DNA of 64,000 nucleotides, taken from positions 284,567 through 348,566 of the forward strand of contig CACVAS010000058.1 in NCBI GenBank assembly GCA_902727855.1, written 5' to 3'. The number at the start of each line of letters is the position of its first letter. Position 1 is the first letter of the stretch. Source of the DNA: an uncultured Sulfurovum sp. Lineage in GTDB: Bacteria; Campylobacterota; Campylobacteria; Campylobacterales; Sulfurovaceae. Shown one piece after another: positions 6,487 through 29,050 of this stretch. Both the position numbers and the translations under genes were made by a program. The notes beneath the pieces are model-generated. The model made no database searches, had not been told where the DNA came from, and saw only the letters and a program-made list of their open reading frames with translations.

Positions 6487-8212
6487 GATTGTGATTAAAT
6501 TCTGGCACAATTTTTTTAAGTGATACAAGCTTTACTTGACTCTTTAAAAGATTTTCGATATCTTTATTTAAATACTCTAAACTATATTGAGTAGGTGCAG
6601 CAACAGTAATTGACTCGTATTCCGTATGCATATCACTCTCATCTATAAGGAGTTCTTCGTAAAGCTTTTCTCCTGGGCGTAAACCTGTAATCTCTATTTT
6701 GACATCTTCTTTCTCACTAAGTTTTATCATTTTTTTGGCAAGGTCAACTATCTTAATAGGTTCACCCATATCTAATATAAAAATTTCACCGCCCTTTCCT
6801 ATAGCCCCTGCTTGTAGTACAAGTTCACATGCTTCATGCACAAGCATAAAATATCTACTTACCTCAGGATGTGTAACAGTTACATTTTGTCCATTTTCTA
6901 TTTGAGACTTAAACTTTGGTATTACAGATCCACTAGACCCCAACACATTACCAAATCGGACCGCAACAATATCTGTGCTTTGTCCATTTGAGTTTTGTGC
7001 GTAAAGTTCACATATACGCTTTGTTGCGCCCATCACATTTGTAGGTCGTACTGCTTTATCGGTACTTATTAATACAAATTTTTCAACACCATGAGCTACA
7101 GCAATATCTATACAATTCTTTGTCCCTACCACATTGTTTAAAATAGCTTCTTCTATGTTTACTTCTACCATAGGAACATGCTTGTAAGCTGCAGCATGTA
7201 TAACAATCTGAGGTCTATGTCGTTTAAAAGTCTTTTCTAGTTGCAGTTTATTTACCACAGATTGCATCACCGGTACAATTTCAACATTGGCTTTACCTAT
7301 TGCCTGTTCTACTGCATATAGATTATATTCACTATGATCTAAGAGTATTAACTTCTTAGCACCATACTTTACACACTGACGAACTATCTCAGAGCCTATA
7401 CTTCCACCTGCACCTGTAACAAGAATAGCTTTATGTTTTATAAATGTTTCTATCTTTTCATTATCTAAGTCTTTTGAATTACGTGCAAGTAAATCGACGA
7501 GGGAAATACTTTTTAATTGCGTTACAAAAGACCTGTCACTTAATATGTCATGCAATGATGGTAAAATCTTAATCTGTTTAAAACAGTTATGTAACTCTGT
7601 ATAAATTTCTTTTGTTCTTTTACTATCTACAGAAGGCATTGCAATAACCAAAAGATCCATTTTTTTATTGTTTAGCCGTTTTCTTAATATATCTTTAGAA
7701 ATAATATTTATAGTATCCACACTTCTTTTCTGTAGAGAACGTGCATCATCAACAAAGTATTTCACTTTATACTCTGTTGTTGTAAACTCCTCCCCCAATT
7801 TAAGTCCTGCTTTTCCTGCACCATAAATTACAACTGTTTTTGTTTTTTTTATGCTCCCTCTATTCACATAACTATAATAGCTATACATTAAAAAATTTAT
7901 CCCAAAAAGATAAGCAAATAACTCAGAAATGAAAAAATAAATATGTATCTGACTATAGAAAATAGGCATATATATAGCAAATGCAGCTATATATACAGCA
8001 CTTTTAAGTAAAAAAGTTTTTTGTGAAGCCTTACTCCAAGATAGAGAGTAGTCTTTATAGATTACAAGAGAAGCAACAATTCTTACTATACTTACAACAA
8101 TAATGACATCCCAAAGAATCTCTCTATGAAATATCCAAAAAGTCCAGGAGAATGTAAGTATAGTTAAAAGTACAATCACTGCTATATTTAAAAATCTTTT
8201 ATCTATACTCAT
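6476..8212 (-). CDS. Membrane-anchored nucleotide-sugar 4,6-dehydratase (WbpM/CapD/PglF family)
   Basis: N-terminal TMs; VTGAGGSIGSEIVRQ Rossmann; FVLISTDKAVRPTNVMGATKR active-site region. Confidence 0.92.
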   Translation of the reverse strand: MSIDKRFLNIAVIVLLTILTFSWTFWIFHREILWDVIIVVSIVRIVASLVIYKDYSLSWSKASQKTFLLKSAVYIAAFAIYMPIFYSQIHIYFFISELFAYLFGINFLMYSYYSYVNRGSIKKTKTVVIYGAGKAGLKLGEEFTTTEYKVKYFVDDARSLQKRSVDTINIISKDILRKRLNNKKMDLLVIAMPSVDSKRTKEIYTELHNCFKQIKILPSLHDILSDRSFVTQLKSISLVDLLARNSKDLDNEKIETFIKHKAILVTGAGGSIGSEIVRQCVKYGAKKLILLDHSEYNLYAVEQAIGKANVEIVPVMQSVVNKLQLEKTFKRHRPQIVIHAAAYKHVPMVEVNIEEAILNNVVGTKNCIDIAVAHGVEKFVLISTDKAVRPTNVMGATKRICELYAQNSNGQSTDIVAVRFGNVLGSSGSVIPKFKSQIENGQNVTVTHPEVSRYFMLVHEACELVLQAGAIGKGGEIFILDMGEPIKIVDLAKKMIKLSEKEDVKIEITGLRPGEKLYEELLIDESDMHTEYESITVAAPTQYSLEYLNKDIENLLKSQVKLVSLKKIVPEFNHNLNT

Positions 8213-8263
8213 TATATTTTCACTTCCTAATTATTGAAGTATTATATAATATTTGTTATCTTT

Positions 8264-9247
8264 TTACGATTTATCGTTAGGAAAACTTTTAAGGTTACAT
8301 TGAATATCAATATATTTTAAAATAGTAAACATTAAAAACATAGAAATAAAAAATACAAGATATATATTCGGAATAAAATATACTAATCCACACAACAATA
8401 TATTAATCATAATAGAAAATTTTACTATTTTATTAGGCTTCCATCCTTGTTGATTTAATCTTTGATAGGCATGTTTCTTATGTGCCTGGCTTAGTTTCTC
8501 ACCATTTTTATAACGCCTAAAAAGTGTTACCGTTGCATCAAACCAAAATAGACTAAATAATACAAGCCATATCCACATGTTAGTAGCTTCCACATTACTA
8601 TAATAGATTGTAAATATTGCAACAGTGTATCCAAGGAAAGTACTTCCAACGTCTCCCATGAATATTTTAGCTTTATGCCAATTCCACAGTAAAAAGCCTA
8701 ACACAGTTACTATTAAAACTAAAAAATGGGTACCTCCAAACAGTGTATATCCTGCAAAGCCAAGAAAAACCGCTTCGCTTCCCGCATACCCATCAATACC
8801 ATCTATAAAATTATAGAGATTAATAGACCATATAATTCCAATAATGGCAACAAGATTTACAATATATTGATTTTCTAACCTAAAGAAACCAAAGTCTAAA
8901 TAGTGCAACCCTCCAAGTAAATACAGTCCCCATAATGCGACAAAAAGTTGCACAAAGAATCTTATTCTTGATCCTAAATCGACAATATCATCCACGTAAC
9001 CAAGTATCGCAATGATTGCCCCACACATTAAAGCATAATAGAGAGAGCTTTCAATTTCATTGAAATAAAACAAATAACTAAGCCCTAAAAACCATGTAAT
9101 TGCTATCGCTACACCTCCACCATGAGGGGTAGGAATTGTATGACTACTTCGCTCATTGACCTCAGCAATAAGTGTATGTTTTATGGCATAATTTTTAATG
9201 ACATAGGTCAAAATAAAAGATAAAAGGAATAGGACAATATAGATCAT
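8264..9247 (-). CDS. WecA/WbpL-family undecaprenyl-phosphate glycosyl-1-phosphate transferase
   Basis: PHGGGVAI, GYVDDIVDL, NLYNFIDGIDGYAGSEA, FMGDVGSTFLGY motifs. Confidence 0.93.
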   Translation of the reverse strand: MIYIVLFLLSFILTYVIKNYAIKHTLIAEVNERSSHTIPTPHGGGVAIAITWFLGLSYLFYFNEIESSLYYALMCGAIIAILGYVDDIVDLGSRIRFFVQLFVALWGLYLLGGLHYLDFGFFRLENQYIVNLVAIIGIIWSINLYNFIDGIDGYAGSEAVFLGFAGYTLFGGTHFLVLIVTVLGFLLWNWHKAKIFMGDVGSTFLGYTVAIFTIYYSNVEATNMWIWLVLFSLFWFDATVTLFRRYKNGEKLSQAHKKHAYQRLNQQGWKPNKIVKFSIMINILLCGLVYFIPNIYLVFFISMFLMFTILKYIDIQCNLKSFPNDKS

Positions 9248-10098
9248 ACCTTCATACCCATAGTTGTAGCCTTTAGTCCTTCTTCAACACTATATCTATT
9301 TTTATATTCCAATATCTTTTGTGAATATTTATTGCATACTTCAAAGTTTCCATACAGCTGTTGATACAATGATGGTTTTACTTTTTTTAAAATCATTTTG
9401 AAAAATGGCACTCTAATCATATATACTCTACTTTCAAGACCTTGTGACAATAACTTTATAAGTTTAGATGTAGAGATACTCTTATCATCAGATGCTAAAA
9501 ACAAACCTTCTTTTTGTTTTTCTACTACCATCTCGATCATCGCTGTGAGGTTACGAATATAGACAAAACTTCTTTTATTTTGTGTATTATAAAAAGGTAA
9601 TATTGGCATTATTTTAATTATTTTTATAAGAGATACTATATTTCCTGGAGCACTTGCTCCATAGACCATAGGAGGTCGTATAACTGACACTTTAAACTCT
9701 TTATCGGACAGTTTATTCAACTTCTGTTCAGCTTCAAATTTACTTTTTGCATAAGGTGTCCTTGGGGTACATTCACTCTCTTCATCTACCTTGTCCATAC
9801 TATCTCCATATACAGCAATAGTACTTATAAAAATAAAATGTTTAACCCCATTAAGTTTAGCTTTTTTTGCAAGGTTTACCGTATATTCTGTATTTATTTT
9901 ATAGTACTTAACATAGTCAGTTTCATGTTTCTTATGTACCAGAGCAGCACAGTGCAATACAGTATCAATACCTTTTATGGACAATGATTCAAGAGAACTG
10001 TTTTGTAAAGAAAATACCGAAAATGTATATTTTTCTTTAAATGTTTCAATAAAGCTCTTACCTATGTAGCCACTACTACCTGTAACCAGTATATTCAT
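9244..10098 (-). CDS. NAD-dependent nucleotide-sugar epimerase/4-reductase (WbpV-like)
   Basis: NILVTGSSGYIGKSF; TPYAKSKFEAEQ (YxxxK). Confidence 0.87.
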   Translation of the reverse strand: MNILVTGSSGYIGKSFIETFKEKYTFSVFSLQNSSLESLSIKGIDTVLHCAALVHKKHETDYVKYYKINTEYTVNLAKKAKLNGVKHFIFISTIAVYGDSMDKVDEESECTPRTPYAKSKFEAEQKLNKLSDKEFKVSVIRPPMVYGASAPGNIVSLIKIIKIMPILPFYNTQNKRSFVYIRNLTAMIEMVVEKQKEGLFLASDDKSISTSKLIKLLSQGLESRVYMIRVPFFKMILKKVKPSLYQQLYGNFEVCNKYSQKILEYKNRYSVEEGLKATTMGMKV

Positions 10099-10126
10099 CT
10101 TGGGTATCCTATCTTAACCTATTGTC

Positions 10127-10885
10127 TCATAGTTTTTTGTATTTTGTGAAACTATAAACAACATAGTGAACAAAGTAAAAAAATGATTTCAATACCGATA
10201 ATTTTTCTTTATTTCTATAGATATTCCACACCCATTGTAAAGCTTGTATTTTATTACTTGAAAGACTATTATCATGTACTCTATATGCTGCCAAAGGTTC
10301 AAGTATCCCAACCGCTATTCCAATTCTTTTTAATATTTTTAACTTCAAGACATAATCTTCATGACCAATATTTTCAAAAAAATATTTACCTATCTTTTGT
10401 GTGTCATAGACTAATGTTAAAGTACCTATTATACTAGGGTATTTTAACAAATCGATATACCCTACTTCTCCTTTTACAGGATGAAGAGCAAGTTTCTTAT
10501 CTTGATCATCCATCGTATAGTATGCAGTATAACTTAACGCACTATTCTTTTCATTCATAAGACTTATTTGCCTTTCTAGTTTATTCTTATACCAAGTATC
10601 ATCACTGTCTAAAAAAGCTATATACCGCCCTAAAGAACGTTGCGTCGCAATATTTCTACTTTGTGCAGCTCCCATATTGTTTTGATTCCTAATAAAAATT
10701 ATTCTATTATCAAAATTGCTATATTTTTTTATTATCTCTAGACTATTATCATTTGAGAAGTCATCAACAATAATCATCTCCCAATGTATAAACGTTTGGG
10801 CTAAAACAGATTCAATACACTTATTTATAAATATCTCAGCATTATAACATGGTGTGACGATAGAGACAATGGGTATATTATTCAA
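10127..10885 (-). CDS. Glycosyltransferase family 2
   Basis: VSIVTPCYNAEIFINKCIESVLAQTFIHWEMIIVDDFSNDNS; paralogous to 845-1603. Confidence 0.93.
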   Translation of the reverse strand: MNNIPIVSIVTPCYNAEIFINKCIESVLAQTFIHWEMIIVDDFSNDNSLEIIKKYSNFDNRIIFIRNQNNMGAAQSRNIATQRSLGRYIAFLDSDDTWYKNKLERQISLMNEKNSALSYTAYYTMDDQDKKLALHPVKGEVGYIDLLKYPSIIGTLTLVYDTQKIGKYFFENIGHEDYVLKLKILKRIGIAVGILEPLAAYRVHDNSLSSNKIQALQWVWNIYRNKEKLSVLKSFFYFVHYVVYSFTKYKKL

Positions 10886-10903
10886 AAATAATTCCTCATT
10901 ATA

Positions 10904-11947
10904 TTAAAATTCAAAACTTGCTTTTTGCTTGAATTTCTCTTTAAGAGATTGCTCCAACATAGCAACAACCTCTTGAAATTCACTATCACTAATATCATTC
11001 ATTTGATCATTAAAACAAACAAAACTAAATGTGTCTCCATATTTTATTTCTTCTAATATATCCTTCATTTGTTGAAAACAATTCATCCTCACTACATACC
11101 CATCATCATAATTATGTGGTTCGAAGTCACCAGTCATTAAATGCCAATATCTATACAAATACTGTGTAATATCTGTATTAAGTTTAAACCTGTGCCTAGA
11201 TGTCTCTTTCATCTCTTTACTAAAAATACTACTTACATATTTCAAATTCTGTTTTACATATGGCTGAGGATGGTGCCAATGATTAATCCAAAAGACTTTT
11301 TTGTATAAAAATCTATATAAAAAATTACTTATCTTTTGCTTTAACCCATAAGAATGATGAAAATATTGGGAGTAACTCATCTTACCTAGAGAAACTTCAT
11401 TATTAATAAGATGAATATTATTTAAAATTGCATCCACCCAAACATCACTACTTCTCACAAGTTTATAGACTCTTCCTCGAGGAAGCCATCCATGATAAAA
11501 AAAGTCAACTGGCTTGTTATTCTTAAAAAACCTATCTATTTCTAAATATTTCCATATGATAGTATCATCATTCAAATAAACAAATTTTTCTGACAACCCT
11601 TTAATATTTACTAGATTCATCTCTATAGCATTTACATTAAATACTGGTAAGTCATTGTTATCCGGAAATATATCATCATGTGTAATAAGTTCTATTTTAG
11701 GATGATGTATATCAAGCCAACGTGGATAATGTCCAGTAGTAATAAGATAAATTTTATGATACCAAGGACAATTTTTCTCAATACTTCTTAGTACATACCT
11801 CAAGGTATTCGCATCTCGATATCTTGTGTTATTTTCTGTATCATGACTAGTGCTATTTAATGCATATTTTCCTTTTTCTTCTTGCCAGCTTAAATCGCTA
11901 CTATCAACCCATGGAAGCACAAAATCAATTTTATCTTCTTCATTCAT
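10904..11947 (-). CDS. Stealth-family sugar-1-phosphate transferase
   Basis: Conserved regions IDFVLPWVDSSDLSWQEEK and YRDANTLRYVLRSIEKNCPWYHKIYLITTG typical of Stealth proteins. Confidence 0.88.
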   Translation of the reverse strand: MNEEDKIDFVLPWVDSSDLSWQEEKGKYALNSTSHDTENNTRYRDANTLRYVLRSIEKNCPWYHKIYLITTGHYPRWLDIHHPKIELITHDDIFPDNNDLPVFNVNAIEMNLVNIKGLSEKFVYLNDDTIIWKYLEIDRFFKNNKPVDFFYHGWLPRGRVYKLVRSSDVWVDAILNNIHLINNEVSLGKMSYSQYFHHSYGLKQKISNFLYRFLYKKVFWINHWHHPQPYVKQNLKYVSSIFSKEMKETSRHRFKLNTDITQYLYRYWHLMTGDFEPHNYDDGYVVRMNCFQQMKDILEEIKYGDTFSFVCFNDQMNDISDSEFQEVVAMLEQSLKEKFKQKASFEF

Positions 11948-13125
11948 AGTTGCAAACTTTCGATGAGCCTATTACTAAAGCCTCTCTCATGTAAATGAAA
12001 CTCTTTTTTCACTTTATCTCGTTTATCAATGTAACAATCATTGCCCCTGACAATCAAATCGTCTAGCACATTAATTAACTCTGTATAATTCTCGACTATT
12101 GCCCCTGGCATAAAACCTTTAGGCTCTGAAAATACGAAATTTCTTGTTTTCTTATACACGTCAAAATCATCTATAGCAAAAATAATGGGTTTATTCAGTA
12201 ATAAAAAATCGATATATATCGATGAAAAATCTGTTAGTAAAATATCTACTTCAGATAGAAGGGAATAGAGTTGACAGCTATTTTCTAATAAATCCATCTT
12301 TTTGATAATTGTGATATTTGAATACTTTTCAAAATCATGTTTATTCAATGCATCCATAGGATGCAACTTTATAAGCATATAGGACTTAATAGATAACAGA
12401 TACTCATTTAACTTGCTTAGTTCCCCATTGTTTAATAAGGGTAAATGATTTTGAAAGTCTCCATCTTGCATTTTACCATCCTCTGTATTTCTATATGTTG
12501 GTGCCCAAAAAATGATTTTTTTATATTGTTCTTTTTTAATGCCCAGTGTAGTTAGACAACCACTCTGATTAAACAAGAAGTCACATCTCGGTTGTCCTGT
12601 AGTTAGTACACTATTGGATTTTAATAAAAATGCATCTGACATAATTTTTTGAAACCGTTTAGAAGTAGCAATTGTATAAGTACATTTTTGGATATCCATA
12701 GACTGATTAGCAGTATCCAAATAACCAATCGTTTTCAATGGCATCCCATGCCATAAATTAATACGAACTTGACTTTTAGGGAGACTCATCCCCGCATAAA
12801 ACCCATGTGTAAAAAATATATATCTTGAATTTATATAATTAAGCAATCCACAAAAAGACTTTTTATCAATTATTTTAATTTTGCAAAGTTCATTATCTTC
12901 TATATCAATATTATTTTTTATCATGTTAAAATATAAATTTTTATTTTCAATCTCATCTACAAGCCATATATACTTATACCCTATCGTTGCATTTTCAATT
13001 AAGTATTTAAACGTTGCAAAGCTATTATCAGAAAAGTCTGGGGAGCTAAGAAAAATAATTTGATTTAACTTTTTAGGATATGTAAGATTTAAAAATTTAA
13101 AAAAATTTAAAATTATATTTTTCAT
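11944..13125 (-). CDS. CDP-glycerol glycerophosphotransferase family protein (TagB/TagF-like)
   Basis: NLWHGMPLKTIGYLD; KIIFWAPTYRNTEDG; LLTDFSSIYIDFLLLNKPIIF. Confidence 0.9.
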   Translation of the reverse strand: MKNIILNFFKFLNLTYPKKLNQIIFLSSPDFSDNSFATFKYLIENATIGYKYIWLVDEIENKNLYFNMIKNNIDIEDNELCKIKIIDKKSFCGLLNYINSRYIFFTHGFYAGMSLPKSQVRINLWHGMPLKTIGYLDTANQSMDIQKCTYTIATSKRFQKIMSDAFLLKSNSVLTTGQPRCDFLFNQSGCLTTLGIKKEQYKKIIFWAPTYRNTEDGKMQDGDFQNHLPLLNNGELSKLNEYLLSIKSYMLIKLHPMDALNKHDFEKYSNITIIKKMDLLENSCQLYSLLSEVDILLTDFSSIYIDFLLLNKPIIFAIDDFDVYKKTRNFVFSEPKGFMPGAIVENYTELINVLDDLIVRGNDCYIDKRDKVKKEFHLHERGFSNRLIESLQL

Positions 13126-18868: not shown

Positions 18869-20233
18869 TTATTTTAAGTTCACAGAAACTTTGTCTGCCT
18901 TAATGGTAGAGGTATCTAATGCCAAATTCGTAAGTAATGACTCTACTTTTACCAATCTTTTTTGCATAGCCTCAAGCTTGCTTATTTTCTCTTCCATTAG
19001 TTTCATCTGTACTGTTTTGGAAACAAGAGCCTCTTCTTGCTGAAGGGTATAAAGTGTTAATTCTTCTACTTTTTCAAGTAAGGTCATTTGAAGACCAGAA
19101 AGATTTATTACACCTGCTTTTCCTACTTCATCCGCAGAGACTACACCAGGTAAATGGTTGTTTTTGCTAATGTAGGTTTTTAACTCATGTAACGGCATAA
19201 GCTTATAATCTTCTTCAAAAACGTAATCAGGTACATTCATTTGTGTACCATTTACATAGAGATTACCATTTGGTATGATAACATCACCATGATTTTTTAT
19301 CTCAATACCTACTACAGCAGTTGTAGAGTTATAAGGGGTTGTTGCAATTTCAATTTTTGTTCCAGTATTGGTACCTGACCAGTCACCCACCGCACGCACC
19401 ATCATGTAGGCTTTTGCCCCAGTCCAGTCAGTACCATCATGTCCTCTCCATGCGAAAGAACCCAAAACATTTTTATTTTTTGTATTTGCCACATTTCCAC
19501 TACCATCAGACCCCCCGTGCCTACTGGTAAACTGTGGTGCATCATACTCACCTGCTCCAACTGTAGTCAAAACAAGTCTCGCACCATCTTCTTCTTGGTA
19601 TACATCAAGTTTTTCTACAGGTGCATTATTCCCTATCCCAATACCCTTTTCACCAACTACCAAACTATCGGTTTGAGCATTATTTAGTATCTTCATTGGT
19701 TCAGTGGAAGGGGAAGAAGTACGATTGATAATCTCTAAGGTATTATAGACAGAATGGGCATTTATTGCCCACTCAGAAGAGCCATCTTTTAAATCTATGC
19801 GACCATCAGATGCATCAAGTTTAATATAATCTAAATCATCCACTACATCTAAATCTGTTGTTGGGGTTGTTGTCCCAACTCCTAATCTATCTAAAGACCT
19901 ATCGATAAATACTGAACCATTTGCAAACGCAACATCACCGGATGAGTCAACCATAATACTATTTTCATTATTTAGTGAATGCATTATGCGAAAAACTGTC
20001 TTGGCATTATGGTTTACATCATCAATATCATCTTGGAGATAAAAACTAGCCGTCCCCCCATATAAATACCATTCTGCTCCTGAACCAGAGTCTGTTTCAT
20101 CAAACCACAGTGAAGGACTACCAGTTGAAACAATAGTTGCAGGAGATGCAATATCTTCTGCTTTACTCATAGAAATAGTCAATGTCGATACTAACAGCAC
20201 TGATGCCAACATAGATAATTTTATGTTTTGCAT
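18869..20233 (-). CDS. Secreted tail-fibre-like surface protein with Bacteroidota-type C-terminal assembly region
   Basis: Signal peptide; C-terminal DYVFEEDYKLMPLHELKTYISKNNHLPGVVSADEVGKAGVINLSGLQMTLLEKVEELTLYTLQQ resembles the conserved C-terminus common in Bacteroidota surface proteins. Confidence 0.72.
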   Translation of the reverse strand: MQNIKLSMLASVLLVSTLTISMSKAEDIASPATIVSTGSPSLWFDETDSGSGAEWYLYGGTASFYLQDDIDDVNHNAKTVFRIMHSLNNENSIMVDSSGDVAFANGSVFIDRSLDRLGVGTTTPTTDLDVVDDLDYIKLDASDGRIDLKDGSSEWAINAHSVYNTLEIINRTSSPSTEPMKILNNAQTDSLVVGEKGIGIGNNAPVEKLDVYQEEDGARLVLTTVGAGEYDAPQFTSRHGGSDGSGNVANTKNKNVLGSFAWRGHDGTDWTGAKAYMMVRAVGDWSGTNTGTKIEIATTPYNSTTAVVGIEIKNHGDVIIPNGNLYVNGTQMNVPDYVFEEDYKLMPLHELKTYISKNNHLPGVVSADEVGKAGVINLSGLQMTLLEKVEELTLYTLQQEEALVSKTVQMKLMEEKISKLEAMQKRLVKVESLLTNLALDTSTIKADKVSVNLK

Positions 20234-20236
20234 AAC

Positions 20237-20620
20237 TTACTCCTCTTCTTTTGTAATCATTTGACCATCTGTAACTTCAACTGAACCACCAGCATAATCA
20301 CTTTTTATACTTGTATCTACTTCTGATATTTCTTCCTCTCCCTCAACAGGGACTATATCTGTAGCTTTTGGAATGACTCTTACATCATATCTGTATGCAC
20401 CATCTGCACCTGAAGGAGTCCAGCTAAATGTGTTACCCTCATACTTTTCATTGACGATTACTTTATCATCCGGTCCGACTATCTTGGCTACCACTGTTCC
20501 GTCTATAGTAGAAGTTAGAGTTAGCATTTCTACTGACTTCTCTACTGTCATATCTGCAAGTGCACCCACACTTGATACTACTCCAACGAGTAGACATTTT
20601 ATTAAAATATTATTTTTCAT
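20237..20620 (-). CDS. Small secreted protein
   Basis: Signal-peptide-like N-terminus; 3 bp upstream of the tail-fibre-like gene. Confidence 0.65.
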   Translation of the reverse strand: MKNNILIKCLLVGVVSSVGALADMTVEKSVEMLTLTSTIDGTVVAKIVGPDDKVIVNEKYEGNTFSWTPSGADGAYRYDVRVIPKATDIVPVEGEEEISEVDTSIKSDYAGGSVEVTDGQMITKEEE

Positions 20621-23099: not shown

Positions 23100-24995
23100 C
23101 TAAAATAATTTATCATAATCTTTTCTCTCGAAAAGTTCAAGCTTCCCGCCAACAGTTGCATTATAAATTTTACGTCCATCTTCTTCAAACGCTTCTTTAC
23201 ATTTTTCATAGTTCATAAGCACTCTGTCAAGTTTTGGATCATGCCACTTTTTACCTTTTCCAAAGTAGTCTGGATGAAAGTGATTTGGATCATCTTCATT
23301 ACTTTCGTATGTATTTCCAGTAATTTCTGTACTTGTAGGTACATCATAAGAAAAGTCCATTCCTATAAGATAAACTTCAGTGAAACCTAAATAATAGGCT
23401 AATTGTAGTTGCATCATAGTAACAGATTGACCAGCATAAGCCTTCTCTGAAAAATCAGTAGAAAACTGTGCTATAGGGTTTTTGCTATTATAGAAAGATA
23501 AATCCGCATTAAAAAAATGTGTTTTTTTAGTCTTTCTAATTTTATTTTTATATATATAAGGAAAAAATCTATGTTCACAATCAAATTTATTTATTTCTTT
23601 GATATTATCATTTACTACATGACCATCTTCTACCATATAAAAGTTTGGTCTATATCCCATTTCTCTAGTTTTATAAAAAATTCCATTCACAGCGAAACTA
23701 TATTCATCTTTTAGTAATGATAAGTCACATTTATTTAAAGATGGGCCATTTCCAATTACAAAACATCTTTCTCCTTGAAACATATTATGATATTGTTTCA
23801 ATTCTATTTTATCTTTATTTGTAAAAGTTGGTTTTTTTAATTTAGGCATAATAGTATTTCCTAAAATTGTTTTAACAACTTGTCTCTTATTTGATTTTTT
23901 TGGTAAAATCTTATCGATTATCTTTTTCATATCTTTTTTAGATCCTTTGTATTTTTTCAACTCTTCTACTTGTTTCTCTAATTCTAAAATTCTATTTTTA
24001 TAATTGATAATATCTAAGCTATCAATTTGTAAATTTTTATCAAATTTTTCATTATAATATTTAGCACATTTCTTACTAAGATCATTATCATATTCCAATA
24101 ACATTTTAATGTTACTTTCTGTCAATATATTATCTTCTAGTAAGTTTTTTCTAACAATTGATTCTAAATAAGTTTTTTCTTTATCTAAAAGTGTTGAGTG
24201 TTCTATTCGACTAAAAAGCCCCATTGTAAAATGAAAATATCTTCGTAAATAATATAAGTAGTTTTTATCTAAAATATTATTTTGTAACAAATATCTTTTT
24301 GTATCTCTAACTATAAAGAAAATGTCATCAATGTGCTTTTGAGTAATACTTTTACTAATAGAATCTTTACGTTGTAGCCAATTATAAAAATTTTCAGAAA
24401 CTGAACCTATTTTTTGACTCTTTATAAAAAGTTTGTATGTTATTGCCACATCCTCATGATATAAATCTTTGGGGTATAACAATTTATTTTTAATAAAAAG
24501 ATCTTTTTTAAATATTTTATTACAAGCCATAGATGTAATCTTTGATGATAACATTCGAGAACAAATATAATCATTATCAAAAATTTCATTTTTCATTACC
24601 GTCTGATATAAAATATTGCCTTTAGTATCAACTTGGCTAAAACCACAAATAACAATGTCTAATTTATCATTTTTAGCCTTGTTGTACATAGTTTCAAGCA
24701 TAATACTATCTATATAATCATCTGAATCTAAAAATGCTAAATACTCTCCTTCACTATTCACTATACCACTATTTCTTGCTTCACTAAGTCCTTTATTTCC
24801 CTGATCGATAATTTTAATTCGAGAATCTTTTTTTGCATACTGTTCCAATATCTTAATACTATTATCATTGGATCCATCGTTAATGGTTATGATTTCAATA
24901 TTTTTAAGCGTTTGTATGACTACAGAGTCTAAACACTTTTCAAGATATTGTTCAACGTTATATACAGGGATAATTAAACTAATGTATGGTTTCAT
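23100..24995 (-). CDS. Bifunctional GT2 plus DUF115-like C-terminal domain
   Basis: N-term VSLIIPVYNVEQYLEKCLDS...FLDSDDY; C-term GERCFVIGNGPSLNKCDLSLLKDEYSFAVNGIF and YLIGMDFSY. Confidence 0.82.
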   Translation of the reverse strand: MKPYISLIIPVYNVEQYLEKCLDSVVIQTLKNIEIITINDGSNDNSIKILEQYAKKDSRIKIIDQGNKGLSEARNSGIVNSEGEYLAFLDSDDYIDSIMLETMYNKAKNDKLDIVICGFSQVDTKGNILYQTVMKNEIFDNDYICSRMLSSKITSMACNKIFKKDLFIKNKLLYPKDLYHEDVAITYKLFIKSQKIGSVSENFYNWLQRKDSISKSITQKHIDDIFFIVRDTKRYLLQNNILDKNYLYYLRRYFHFTMGLFSRIEHSTLLDKEKTYLESIVRKNLLEDNILTESNIKMLLEYDNDLSKKCAKYYNEKFDKNLQIDSLDIINYKNRILELEKQVEELKKYKGSKKDMKKIIDKILPKKSNKRQVVKTILGNTIMPKLKKPTFTNKDKIELKQYHNMFQGERCFVIGNGPSLNKCDLSLLKDEYSFAVNGIFYKTREMGYRPNFYMVEDGHVVNDNIKEINKFDCEHRFFPYIYKNKIRKTKKTHFFNADLSFYNSKNPIAQFSTDFSEKAYAGQSVTMMQLQLAYYLGFTEVYLIGMDFSYDVPTSTEITGNTYESNEDDPNHFHPDYFGKGKKWHDPKLDRVLMNYEKCKEAFEEDGRKIYNATVGGKLELFERKDYDKLF

Positions 24996-26241
24996 GTATT
25001 ACCTTTACTATGTTTATACACATTTTATATTTTTTTATAAGCCGCAAGGATAATCTACTATTATTAACATTACTTGCCATTTCTTTTAAACTCTTTATGA
25101 AATTATCTTTTTCGAAAATTTCTTTATCTCTAGTCTCTATTCTTTCTTTCTGTTTTTCTATTTCTTTATCTCTAGTCTCTATTCTTTCTTTCTGTTTTTC
25201 TATTTCTTTATCTCTAGTCTCTATTCTTTCTTTCTGTTTTTCTATTTCTTTATCTCTAGTCTCTATTCTTTCTTTCTGTTTTTCTATTATTTCTTTTTGC
25301 TTCATTGCATACATTTGATTATCTTCCAAAAACTTTAAATAATGTTGTATACGATGGTAATCATTAGATACGAGATTATTTCGAATATTTTTAATTTGAA
25401 AAACGGCTTCTACTTCTTCATTACCCTCTAGCAATGAAAAACTATTCTTTCCTAAGATATTGGTAAGTGTTATCAACGAAAAGTTGTACATGTGTGCATG
25501 CACAGCATAACCTAAAAATGAGAAATTATAGTAGGGTTTATTATGATTTTTTAATATACCTGGTACTTCTATATACAATAATCCATCATTATTAAGTAGC
25601 TTTACTAAAGTATTTAACTCATCTTCCAAATCAATAAAATGTTCAAATACATGGCTTAAGATAATAATATCGAATTTTTTATTTAATTTTAAGACAGAGG
25701 AAGCGTTACCTTCAATCATATTTAGGTTGCGCTTTTGACATTGTCTAATGCAATCATGTGAATATTCAGTTCCATATAACTCAATATCCATGAGTTTTTC
25801 AATAGATTTTTGTCTAAATTCATCTAGTACATTTCCTACTCCCGCTCCAATCTCAAGAATATCAAGGTGTTTTTTATCTTTTACATACGGATAAAGTGTA
25901 TTAAATATCTTCTTTCCTTGTCCTGACTTAAAGAGTGCAACTTGATTATCAAGATTTTCTTTACCATAATTAAGAGGGTGATAGTATTTTTCATAATAAT
26001 ACGGTAGAGAATCTTGTGTCATACGTGGACTTGTCATAATTAGCCCACAGTTTGTACATACATAACTACCAAAAGGTAAATCAAATCTATCAACTTCAAG
26101 TAGTTTTTCTAAATTATCATTATTGCAACAGATACAATAATTAACCTTTTCAAGCTTGATTTTATAGCTTTGTATATCTTGAATTAAAAGCTCTTTATAT
26201 TTTTTTGTAACATCACTTAATGTACGTAATCCTATTTGCAT
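24979..26241 (-). CDS. Class I SAM methyltransferase with N-terminal Zn-ribbon-like motif and C-terminal repeat coiled coil
   Basis: CICCNN...CTNCG; LDILEIGAGVGNVLDEF; FDIIILSHVFEHF; four tandem EKQKERIETRDKEI units. Confidence 0.87.
   Translation of the reverse strand: MQIGLRTLSDVTKKYKELLIQDIQSYKIKLEKVNYCICCNNDNLEKLLEVDRFDLPFGSYVCTNCGLIMTSPRMTQDSLPYYYEKYYHPLNYGKENLDNQVALFKSGQGKKIFNTLYPYVKDKKHLDILEIGAGVGNVLDEFRQKSIEKLMDIELYGTEYSHDCIRQCQKRNLNMIEGNASSVLKLNKKFDIIILSHVFEHFIDLEDELNTLVKLLNNDGLLYIEVPGILKNHNKPYYNFSFLGYAVHAHMYNFSLITLTNILGKNSFSLLEGNEEVEAVFQIKNIRNNLVSNDYHRIQHYLKFLEDNQMYAMKQKEIIEKQKERIETRDKEIEKQKERIETRDKEIEKQKERIETRDKEIEKQKERIETRDKEIFEKDNFIKSLKEMASNVNNSRLSLRLIKKYKMCINIVKVIHETIH
25121..25288. 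repeat. Perfect tandem repeat, 4 x 42 bp
   Basis: tctttatctctagtctctattctttctttctgtttttctatt repeated at 25121, 25163, 25205 and 25247 without mismatch. Confidence 0.97.
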
Positions 26242-28262
26242 TATACAATCCCTTTAGGATAAACCATAAGGTCACACCAACCTCTATCATTTTGGTTATG
26301 TCCAATTATATATGATATAAACATATCTACTTCTTCTAGCTGAATTGTATTTCTCAAGATATCATTTAGACTATCGTTTTTAAATTTGTTTCTCATAGGT
26401 AATTCAACAACATTATACTTACTTATTAATTCTTTTAAAAACTCATGAGGGTTAGTGCCTTGTGATCTTAACCAGTATGGAGCAAATTCAGTTTTTATTA
26501 ACCAGTTATTATTTTTTACTAAATAATTTTCTCCTCCATGAAATACATTTTCTTCATAACCTTGTGTGTCAATTTTTATAAAATAAAAATCACTATGATA
26601 CATTTCAAATAATTTATCAAGACTTATTGTGGGTATAACTTCTTGTCCCCATCTATCATTTTCAGCAACAACCCTATTATCTTGACTTCCAGAGGGATTT
26701 AATGAAAACTTTCTCTTTTCATCGAAATTTTCAGCACATATGGCATTATGAAGTGTGTAGGTATTGTTAATATTACATGATAGATTCTTATTTATGTAAT
26801 TACAAAGATCACTACTTGCCTCAACCAATACTATTTCAGCTTTTGGAAATGCTTTTGCAAAAACAATACTTGTAAACCCATAATTGGCACCAATATCAAA
26901 TATTACAGAGGGATTAAAATATTTCTGTATATCTGAATATAATTCTGAATTAAGTTCTTCGTACGAGGTTTTTCCTCCATACGTAAGAGCACTTTTATCT
27001 AAACTATTTACTGTCAATGATACATCGTTAATAAGAATGTCTTTATTAATGTTTTTTTTAGGTAACCATGTATGTTCCACTGTAACAAAACCAAAGTATC
27101 TAGTATCGGTATTGATGCTTATAAGATCATTATTTAAAGTCCTTGTTAAACATTCTGAACCATCATATATACTGATAATACTAATATATCTACCTGGATT
27201 AAAAATATTATTGAATGTACAAATTATTTCACATATTCCATTTTTAATGATGGGTTTATATTTTTGCATTTCATTTGAAATGCCTGTAATACATTCTCCA
27301 TTTTCTGTCCAAAATGGTATACCGACGATAAGATTTTTAGGTTCATATAATAGATTAAACATAATGATTAAAGATACTTTTTGGTTGGTTTTGACTTTTT
27401 CTAGAGTATTGCCACTACTATCTACCCATGAAAAGGTTATAGTTTGAATTTTATTTGCATTATGAAAAAGATCTCCATAAAAGGGTTTAGTAGAGATAGA
27501 TTTTTCTTTCATTTTAGTTTTTTTATTTTCTTCTTGCTCTAAATAATATTTAATCGCATCATCTGGCTTACCATTAAAGGTCAAATTCCCTTTTTCTAGA
27601 ACAATAACTCTATCACAAAAAAGACGTACACTATTCATAGAATGAGAAACAAATATCATAGATATATTTTCTCTCATGCCGTTTATCTTAGCTAGGCATT
27701 TTTGTTGGAAATTAAAATCACCAACTGCTAAAACTTCATCGAGTATAAGTATATCGGGTTCTACAGAAGTTGCTATGCCAAAACCTAGCCTAGACTTCAT
27801 CCCAGAACTATACACTTTAACAGGTTGGTCTATGAACTCACCTATCTCTGCAAAGTCTTCTATCTCTTTGGTTTTATCTAATATCTCTTTTTTAGATGTG
27901 AAACCTTGTACTTTTAGGTTGTAGACTATATTTTCCCGCCCAGTCATTTCAGGCTTTAAATTAGAAGTTAGTTCTAAGATAGCCGAGACCTTACCATATG
28001 TTTTTACCTTACCACTACTAGGGCTAATTACCTTTGCTATAATTTTAAGAAGTGTAGATTTACCATTACCATTACGACCTATAACCCCTAGTGCTTCCCC
28101 TCTTCTTAACTCTAGAGAGACATTATTAAGCGCATAAAACTTTTTATGGTATATTTTCTGAGAAAAACCCAATGACTCTTTTACTCTATCAAATGGTTTT
28201 TTATAAAGTCTATATGTTTTTGAAACTTTTTCAGCATATACTACCACTTCTCTCAAACTCAT
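26241..28262 (-). CDS. wzt: ABC polysaccharide export ATPase (Wzt) with C-terminal carbohydrate-binding region and fused FkbM methyltransferase
   Basis: GVIGRNGNGKSTLLKIIA, YSSGMKSRLGFGIA, DILILDEVLAVGD; C-term PSVIFDIGANYGFTSIVFAKAFPKAEIVLVEAS... YFIKIDTQGYEENVFHGG (FkbM). Confidence 0.93.
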   Translation of the reverse strand: MSLREVVVYAEKVSKTYRLYKKPFDRVKESLGFSQKIYHKKFYALNNVSLELRRGEALGVIGRNGNGKSTLLKIIAKVISPSSGKVKTYGKVSAILELTSNLKPEMTGRENIVYNLKVQGFTSKKEILDKTKEIEDFAEIGEFIDQPVKVYSSGMKSRLGFGIATSVEPDILILDEVLAVGDFNFQQKCLAKINGMRENISMIFVSHSMNSVRLFCDRVIVLEKGNLTFNGKPDDAIKYYLEQEENKKTKMKEKSISTKPFYGDLFHNANKIQTITFSWVDSSGNTLEKVKTNQKVSLIIMFNLLYEPKNLIVGIPFWTENGECITGISNEMQKYKPIIKNGICEIICTFNNIFNPGRYISIISIYDGSECLTRTLNNDLISINTDTRYFGFVTVEHTWLPKKNINKDILINDVSLTVNSLDKSALTYGGKTSYEELNSELYSDIQKYFNPSVIFDIGANYGFTSIVFAKAFPKAEIVLVEASSDLCNYINKNLSCNINNTYTLHNAICAENFDEKRKFSLNPSGSQDNRVVAENDRWGQEVIPTISLDKLFEMYHSDFYFIKIDTQGYEENVFHGGENYLVKNNNWLIKTEFAPYWLRSQGTNPHEFLKELISKYNVVELPMRNKFKNDSLNDILRNTIQLEEVDMFISYIIGHNQNDRGWCDLMVYPKGIV

Positions 28263-29050
28263 ATTACATCTCCAAAATGTGGTCTTAGCTTTTTATAAAC
28301 AAAGATACCTAAAAACATAAAAACAAGGGTAAAGCTAAGAAATGAGAATAAAAATGTACCATCTTCCCAAAACCAAACGTTATTAAGAAATGTATTTCTA
28401 TAGCCATTGACTATGTAAACCATAGGATTAAAATTCAATATCCACAGGTATTGTTCTGGTACACGAGAAAAAGACCAAAATATAGGGGTAACCCAAAACC
28501 CAACTTGTAGTAATGCTCCTACAAACTGTGCAACGTCTTTAGTAAAGACACTCAAACTTGCCAATAGTAATCCAAAACCGAAGAGTAATAGAGAAAGCAT
28601 CAAAATATAAAAAGGTAACTGAAACCAATAAATACTAGGATAAAAACCCATGATTAACATCATTACTACAACAATACTTAAAAAAATAAGATGCAATAAA
28701 AAAGATGAAAGTATTTTAACTACGGGCAATAATATTATCTTAAAGGACGGTCTCTTTACTAAGCTTTTGTTACCTGTGAATGCATTCATAGTACTGCTTA
28801 GTGAGGTAGAAAAAAACATCCATGAAGTATAACCAGTAAGTAGATAGAGTATAAAGGGTGCTTTGCTATCTATCAGATCATCTTTAAGTCCTACAGAGAA
28901 TATAAGCCAAATAACAAAGATAAAGATAAGAGGCCTAATAATTGCCCAAACAATACCTAGGTATGAACCCATAAACTGTTCGTTAAAGTCTAGTAATGCA
29001 AGAGAAATAAGAAGCTTGTAGTTCTTTAAAAGAGCATATATATGGTTCAA
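28259..29050 (-). CDS. wzm: ABC polysaccharide export permease (Wzm)
   Basis: ABC-2 permease features; 4-bp overlap with wzt. Confidence 0.92.
   Translation of the reverse strand: MNHIYALLKNYKLLISLALLDFNEQFMGSYLGIVWAIIRPLIFIFVIWLIFSVGLKDDLIDSKAPFILYLLTGYTSWMFFSTSLSSTMNAFTGNKSLVKRPSFKIILLPVVKILSSFLLHLIFLSIVVVMMLIMGFYPSIYWFQLPFYILMLSLLLFGFGLLLASLSVFTKDVAQFVGALLQVGFWVTPIFWSFSRVPEQYLWILNFNPMVYIVNGYRNTFLNNVWFWEDGTFLFSFLSFTLVFMFLGIFVYKKLRPHFGDVI

Follow-up and report, generated by a model that had tools for sequence, protein, structure and literature searches.

Tandem-repeat coiled coils beside wzt suggest that surface polysaccharides may be resized through repeat gain or loss

What might a perfect tandem repeat do inside a gene that lies next to wzt? 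In the window (the whole stretch of 64,000 nucleotides that was analysed), a methyltransferase gene contains such an array, and the initial annotation had read it as a coiled coil of variable length that could serve as a molecular ruler, by analogy with WbdD of E. coli O9a. Tandem Repeats Finder (TRF) gave the array a period of 42, 100% matches and a score of 342, which makes it by a wide margin the strongest in the window (runner-up score 63). It is in frame with the methyltransferase ORF on the minus strand and is translated as (EKQKERIETRDKEI)x4. In the phase 25121-25288 all four units are perfect, confirming that they are identical; in the EKQ...EI phase the units run from 25117 to 25284, and the copy nearest the C-terminus carries one silent change, ATA to ATT. 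The repeat had been placed at the C-terminus of the protein. It does lie inside the coil, but 45 residues come after it. Because the four copies agree at every base, neither chance nor heptad constraint alone is enough to account for them. Their identity at the DNA level indicates recent tandem expansion, as had been proposed, or else homogenisation. Searched as a DNA pattern with up to 3 mismatches, the 42-bp unit was absent elsewhere in its own genome and in 396 other genomes of the class. An antisense ORF at 24986-25318 was considered and taken as a by-product of repeat composition.

The genes between 23.1 and 29.1 kb are arranged on the minus strand in the order wzm, wzt, methyltransferase-coil gene and GT2/MptE-like gene (Table 1). 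The methyltransferase gene starts where wzt ends, the two having one base in common, so that the position directly downstream of wzt held as first described; at its other end it shares 17 bases with the next gene. The Wzt protein carries a C-terminal Wzt_C domain of the carbohydrate-binding type. Its C-terminal FkbM domain (Methyltransf_21) puts a methyltransferase domain on the exporter ATPase, and the operon thus contains two adjacent methyltransferase domains. Elsewhere in the polysaccharide cluster, a Stealth-type protein is found beside a CDP-glycerol glycerophosphotransferase-like protein (10904-13125), a pair suggesting a phosphodiester-containing polymer. Two secreted-looking proteins are also encoded in the cluster (18869-20620); one of them, of 454 aa, was matched by no Pfam family, and by eye its C-terminal end looks similar to tail-fibre-type chaperone regions.

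Table 1. Features of the methyltransferase-coil gene and its neighbours, with positions in the window.
Feature	Position	Strand	Basis or detail
wzm, ABC-2 membrane protein	28259..29050	minus	Pfam
wzt: ABC ATPase + Wzt_C + FkbM methyltransferase fusion, 673 aa	26241..28262	minus	Pfam
Wzt_C domain (PF14524), residues 275-368	27159..27440	minus	36 bits, cut-off 30.4
Methyltransferase with coiled coil, 420 aa, proposed chain terminator and ruler	24979..26241	minus	ORF, Pfam, model
Two Cys pairs, C36xxC39 and C62xxC65, probably zinc-ribbon-like	26047..26136	minus	Read from translation
Methyltransf_23 domain, residues 122-270	25432..25878	minus	Pfam, E 1.3e-16
Predicted continuous helix, residues 292-392, array inside	25066..25368	minus	AlphaFold2, pLDDT 82-88 in repeat
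Perfect 42-bp tandem array	25118-25288	minus	(EKQKERIETRDKEI)x4, residues 320-375, 4.1 copies
Predicted C-terminal amphipathic helix, residues 398-419	24985..25050	minus	AlphaFold2, hydrophobic moment
GT2 + MptE-like (DUF115) protein, next gene	23100..24995	minus	ORF, Pfam

Only methyltransferase families were matched by the 420-aa protein in Pfam, and no kinase domain was found there. The Methyltransf_23 domain, N-terminal to the coil, is the predicted capping domain. Foldseek related its fold to general class I and sugar methyltransferases, including the sugar C-methyltransferases KijD1 and MtmC. A sequence search of the PDB returned BamL-type methyltransferases only, with WbdD unmatched, and WbdD was not among the 50 Foldseek matches listed. 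Homology to the WbdD family was rejected on these grounds, in agreement with the earlier description of the methyltransferase as unrelated-looking. The matches to KijD1 and MtmC could point to an enzyme that acts on internal residues or on a nucleotide-sugar precursor, with no role in termination and with a coil that arose by accidental repeat expansion. Compatible with such an enzyme are the sugar-modifying genes of the same cluster and the N-terminal Cys pairs, which may resemble the zinc-binding region of KijD1 and MtmC. We nevertheless consider this improbable, because precursor enzymes are soluble and would have no need of a 15-nm coil with an amphipathic end, and because the repeat-coil recurs at one operon position on unrelated heads, as described below.

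We then consider the structure encoded by the array. AlphaFold2 predicted a single 101-residue helix, a break and a second helix, in a monomer model made from a shallow five-sequence alignment (mean pLDDT 64.6). The first helix covers the whole array, so that the repeat region is predicted to be helical, as the initial annotation had claimed, and the non-helical outcome that would have spoken against it did not occur. Within the array heptads, Ile occupies every a position and Gln or Arg the d positions, and 7 of 10 g-e' pairs are attractive while 1 is repulsive. The charge alternation has a period of 14 residues, which would explain a unit of two heptads rather than one. Reading the array as a single alpha-helix (SAH) was rejected, since its SAH score is negative and reaches only the 17th percentile of shuffled 14-mers. 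An extended coiled coil is thus predicted; at a rise of 0.1485 nm per residue, each unit would contribute 2.1 nm, the four units together would span 8.3 nm, and the whole helix would reach about 15 nm. Judged by its hydrophobic moment (0.51 over residues 395-412), the C-terminal segment is amphipathic. An end of the NSxSWKITKPLR type follows several related coils; in the window protein it is degenerate at best (NNSRLSLRLIKKYK).

No orthologue of the window gene was found among 60 relatives (best about 30% identity), in a scan of genome contigs (12 weak matches to the methyltransferase core only) or in the plasmids searched. Nor did the repeat-unit DNA pattern reveal a copy-number variant of it in 397 genomes of the class. 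As the window protein lacked an orthologue in these searches, we examined the locus class instead, namely the gene after wzt. Loci were defined by Wzt_C (PF14524) matches in the window's genus and in the 397 class genomes, which comprise one per species and are often drafts. ORFs around each locus were called by a simple script and repeats by TRF; the ORF caller and the coil predictor are both simple, and some genes may be misassigned to the position after wzt where small ORFs were called. We counted 73 loci with a following gene on the same strand (the +1 gene), and the 815 other genes at these loci, excluding wzt itself, served for comparison.

Tandem repeats with a period of 21n bp, n being a whole number, were present in 18 of 73 +1 genes as against 11 of the 815 others (odds ratio 24, P = 6e-14); this and the following P values are approximate because wzt loci are not phylogenetically independent. 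The enrichment was unchanged without the window (17/72 versus 10/757). Since the pattern was first noticed in the window's genus, the other genera serve as an independent test, and there 10 of 44 +1 genes and 7 of 419 others contained such repeats (P = 3e-7). Since even a diverged coil shows some weak 21-bp periodicity, a match of at least 90% between copies was also demanded. Under this threshold, repeats remained in 10 of 73 +1 genes against 5 of 815 others (P = 2e-8), and in 3 of 44 against 4 of 419 when only the other genera were counted (P = 0.02). Three of these five other genes are +2 genes, but the one at L142 in fact belongs to the +1 gene, which a frameshift has split. (At L142 the methyltransferase-coil gene after wzt, 8180-9455, lies in two frames and is either a pseudogene or the product of a sequencing error.) Among genes scored as coil-positive by the crude predictor, near-perfect repeats occurred in 8 of 31 at +1 and in 2 of 110 elsewhere (P = 8e-5), so that the enrichment is not fully explained by the presence of a coil. 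About three quarters of the +1 genes in the class have no detectable 21n-bp repeats; the feature is thus recurrent but not required.

The heads joined to these repeat coils are of several kinds. Methyltransf_23-type heads were found in the window and at L075, L087, L158 and L165, and other loci carry FkbM (L078), Methyltransf_24 (L091), GT4 (L092) or GT99 (L182) heads. Sulfotransferase-like heads, recognised by the motif GMHRSGTSAL and without a Pfam match, are present at L090, L177 and L178. The GT99 domain of L182, in a protein encoded directly after wzt with a 42-bp repeat, matches the WbbB structures 5fa0/8cse (E = 4e-68). At most loci the repeat unit has a sequence of its own, unrelated to those of the others, and the expansions therefore look independent. 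An NSxSWKITKPLR-like motif ends the coil in 6 of 73 +1 genes, compared with 2 of 815 others.

Further repeat proteins were noted in passing. At L149, the second gene after wzt (7374-11297) encodes a 1307-aa RgpF-domain protein with a 105-bp (35-aa) repeat of 2.7 copies, 98% matched, followed by a motif of the SFSWNITKPIR type. A related methyltransferase type at L213 (616-2136) and L076 (11280-12719) has its repeat coil N-terminal to the head, with units of 33 bp (11 aa) and 27 bp (9 aa) that are not heptads. In a relative, L105 (11730-13595) encodes an acidic 622-aa protein with a 99-bp repeat of 3.8 copies, 95% matched. On the window's own contig, L111 (6167-11092; C58:222666-227591) encodes a 1642-aa repeat protein of the ASGxxSxA type, with periods of 42, 84, 210 and 252 bp, up to 97% matched; it resembles the head repeats of trimeric autotransporter adhesins.

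If repeats are gained and lost in frame, the coils of close orthologues would be expected to differ by whole heptads. The +1 proteins of L141 and L143, from separate species (94.4% identity, 1201 aa), have a sole indel of at least 3 aa, which is of 7 aa and lies in the coil. Those of L144 and L148, again from separate species (91.5% identity, 352 aa), have a sole such indel of 14 aa, also in the coil, L144 being the longer. The six other gene pairs above 90% identity contain no indel of at least 3 aa. In the sulfotransferase-coil family (head identity 62-64%), 154, 203 and 252 residues separate fixed flanks, giving differences of 49, 49 and 98; L190, compared within this family, contains a 42-bp repeat of 12.1 copies by TRF. 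In the RGSR methyltransferase family the corresponding lengths are 37, 51 and 58 for L075, L158 and L142, and 34 and 55 for L148 and L165, which are offset by 3 from the other members; discontinuities of this kind are common in coiled coils. Among more distant orthologues, several pairs differ by numbers not divisible by 7 (18 aa for L099/L100, for example), so that heptad steps are a strong tendency and not a rule. In this locus class, the coils of close orthologues thus differ in length by 7-residue steps.

The same comparisons bear on whether the coil needs to measure anything. It could be a tether or scaffold that oligomerises the methyltransferase and docks it to the membrane or to glycosyltransferases, its exact length being neutral; repeats would then persist since any length that keeps the heptad register works. 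The wide range of lengths in the sulfotransferase-coil family and the few orthologues almost without a coil (L099 as against L100) are consistent with this, and conservation of the heptad register is expected of any functional coiled coil. We think a tether unlikely, given that near-perfect heptad repeats concentrate after wzt even among coil-positive genes, and that the characterised coil-terminators at wzt, WbdD and WbbB, are rulers (PMC5082667, PMC11231755).

Repeats of this kind also leave traces in assemblies. Four contigs terminate inside +1 arrays (L078, L091, L173 and L178), and a contig end cuts 5 of 18 repeat-bearing +1 genes but 1 of 55 other +1 genes (P = 0.003). Array lengths in drafts are accordingly lower bounds or uncertain, and because repeats break draft assemblies, repeat-built coils are probably under-reported. 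The window's own genome consists of 170 contigs, and if it is a short-read assembly, the copy number of its 168-bp perfect array is uncertain. Could the array then lack a selected function, being the product of recent slippage or of an error in the assembled copy number? Its perfect identity, the fragmented genome and the relatives' contigs that end inside such arrays are in keeping with that. Yet assemblers mostly collapse or break repeats and seldom invent them, breaks are commoner at repeat-bearing than at other +1 genes, and the positional enrichment after wzt is strong; we regard this explanation as very improbable.

For the window gene itself, we lean towards a WbdD-like (O8/O9a) chain-terminating methyltransferase whose coil is a resizable ruler built from DNA repeats. 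The N-terminal methyltransferase would cap, presumably by methylation, the growing lipid-linked glycan of a surface polysaccharide exported by the ABC transporter. The coil would oligomerise and dock to the membrane, and a chain would be capped only if it had grown far enough to reach the methyltransferase; capped chains would then be picked for export by the Wzt_C domain of the neighbouring Wzt. Because perfect 42-bp repeats code for the coil, each unit gained or lost through slippage or unequal recombination would alter its length by exactly two heptads (about 2.1 nm) with frame and register intact, and such resizing could shift the modal chain length. While the ruler idea is plausible for this gene, the better-supported claim concerns the locus class, in which heptad-period repeats recur after wzt on unrelated heads and coils vary in length by heptad steps. 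This pattern suggests that many related bacteria with repeat-built arms after wzt may resize their surface sugar chains through repeat gain or loss. A stronger version, tentative but possible, is that the +1 position throughout the class serves as a contingency-type ruler locus, in which unrelated terminators have repeatedly gained DNA-repeat coils and slippage resizes the polysaccharide. If true, chain length would change within populations in quantised steps of one or two heptads, and O-chain length would be tunable with the enzyme unchanged. Should the coils indeed act as rulers, chain length would be readable from sequence, repeat number should predict modal glycan length in natural and engineered alleles alike, and quick, reversible tuning of surface-polymer length would be explained.

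The concept of a coiled-coil ruler is already established. A trimeric parallel coiled coil keeps the catalytic domains of WbdD at about 200 Å from the membrane; insertions into this coil raise the modal chain length and truncations lower it (PMC5082667). The polymerase is recruited by the C-terminal part of WbdD, and Wzt recognises capped chains through its carbohydrate-binding module (PMC3482155). WbdD of E. coli O8/O9/O9a and K. pneumoniae O5/O3 shares with the window a wzm-wzt partner whose Wzt has a carbohydrate-binding module, an N-terminal methyltransferase, an extended coiled coil (predicted in the window) and, putatively, a C-terminal membrane or partner region. The window protein differs in having no detectable sequence relation to WbdD and no kinase, the kinase being of the O9/O9a type. 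Exact 42-bp tandem repeats make up its coil at the DNA level, and the coil is shorter (about 15 nm, compared with about 20 nm between catalytic domains and membrane in WbdD; PMC5082667), and it was modelled as a monomer only, whereas WbdD is a trimer. WbdD of E. coli O8 is a simple methyltransferase (PMC3482155), so that the missing kinase is no obstacle. The O9a analogy drawn in the initial annotation survives as a plausible ruler idea, but it was too narrow: a methyltransferase-only WbdD exists, the extended coiled coil is a characteristic marker of terminators in this assembly strategy generally (PMC11231755), and the closest precedent for slippage, the FutA/FutB proteins of H. pylori, was missed.

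WbbB (O12) is an established GT99 terminator with a coiled-coil ruler (PMC11231755). The proteins of K. pneumoniae O12 and R. terrigena resemble the window protein in their terminator-coil architecture, and a relative has the GT99-coil of L182 after wzt; the window head is instead a methyltransferase, with no glycosyltransferase fused to its coil. The methyltransferase-coil protein of E. coli O101/O162, for which a ruler role is proposed, has like the window protein a single N-terminal methyltransferase domain and a C-terminal coil and belongs to an O-antigen locus; a tandem-repeat coil is not mentioned in the available part of that source, unlike the window (PMC13168486). FutA/FutB of H. pylori, which judging from gene content probably belongs to the same bacterial class as the window genome, likewise have coding repeats with a 21n-bp period; in FutA/FutB the number of repeats changes in frame. 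In futB, a 168-bp deletion reduced 12 heptads to 4 (PMC5358919), and the FutA/FutB heptad repeats have been called an enzymatic ruler (Nilsson 2006, as cited in PMC5358919). These enzymes fucosylate the O antigen and are not ABC-export chain terminators, and their catalytic domain is unrelated to the window methyltransferase. Our literature search found no description of variable heptad repeats in ABC-pathway O-antigen terminators. A small number of E. coli and Klebsiella proteins are known coiled-coil rulers of O-polysaccharide length, and H. pylori fucosyltransferases are known for heptads prone to slippage. What is new here is the combination of ruler and DNA-repeat slippage, recurring at wzt: the putative rulers beside it are repeatedly repeat-built on unrelated heads, and their lengths in close orthologues shift by whole heptads.
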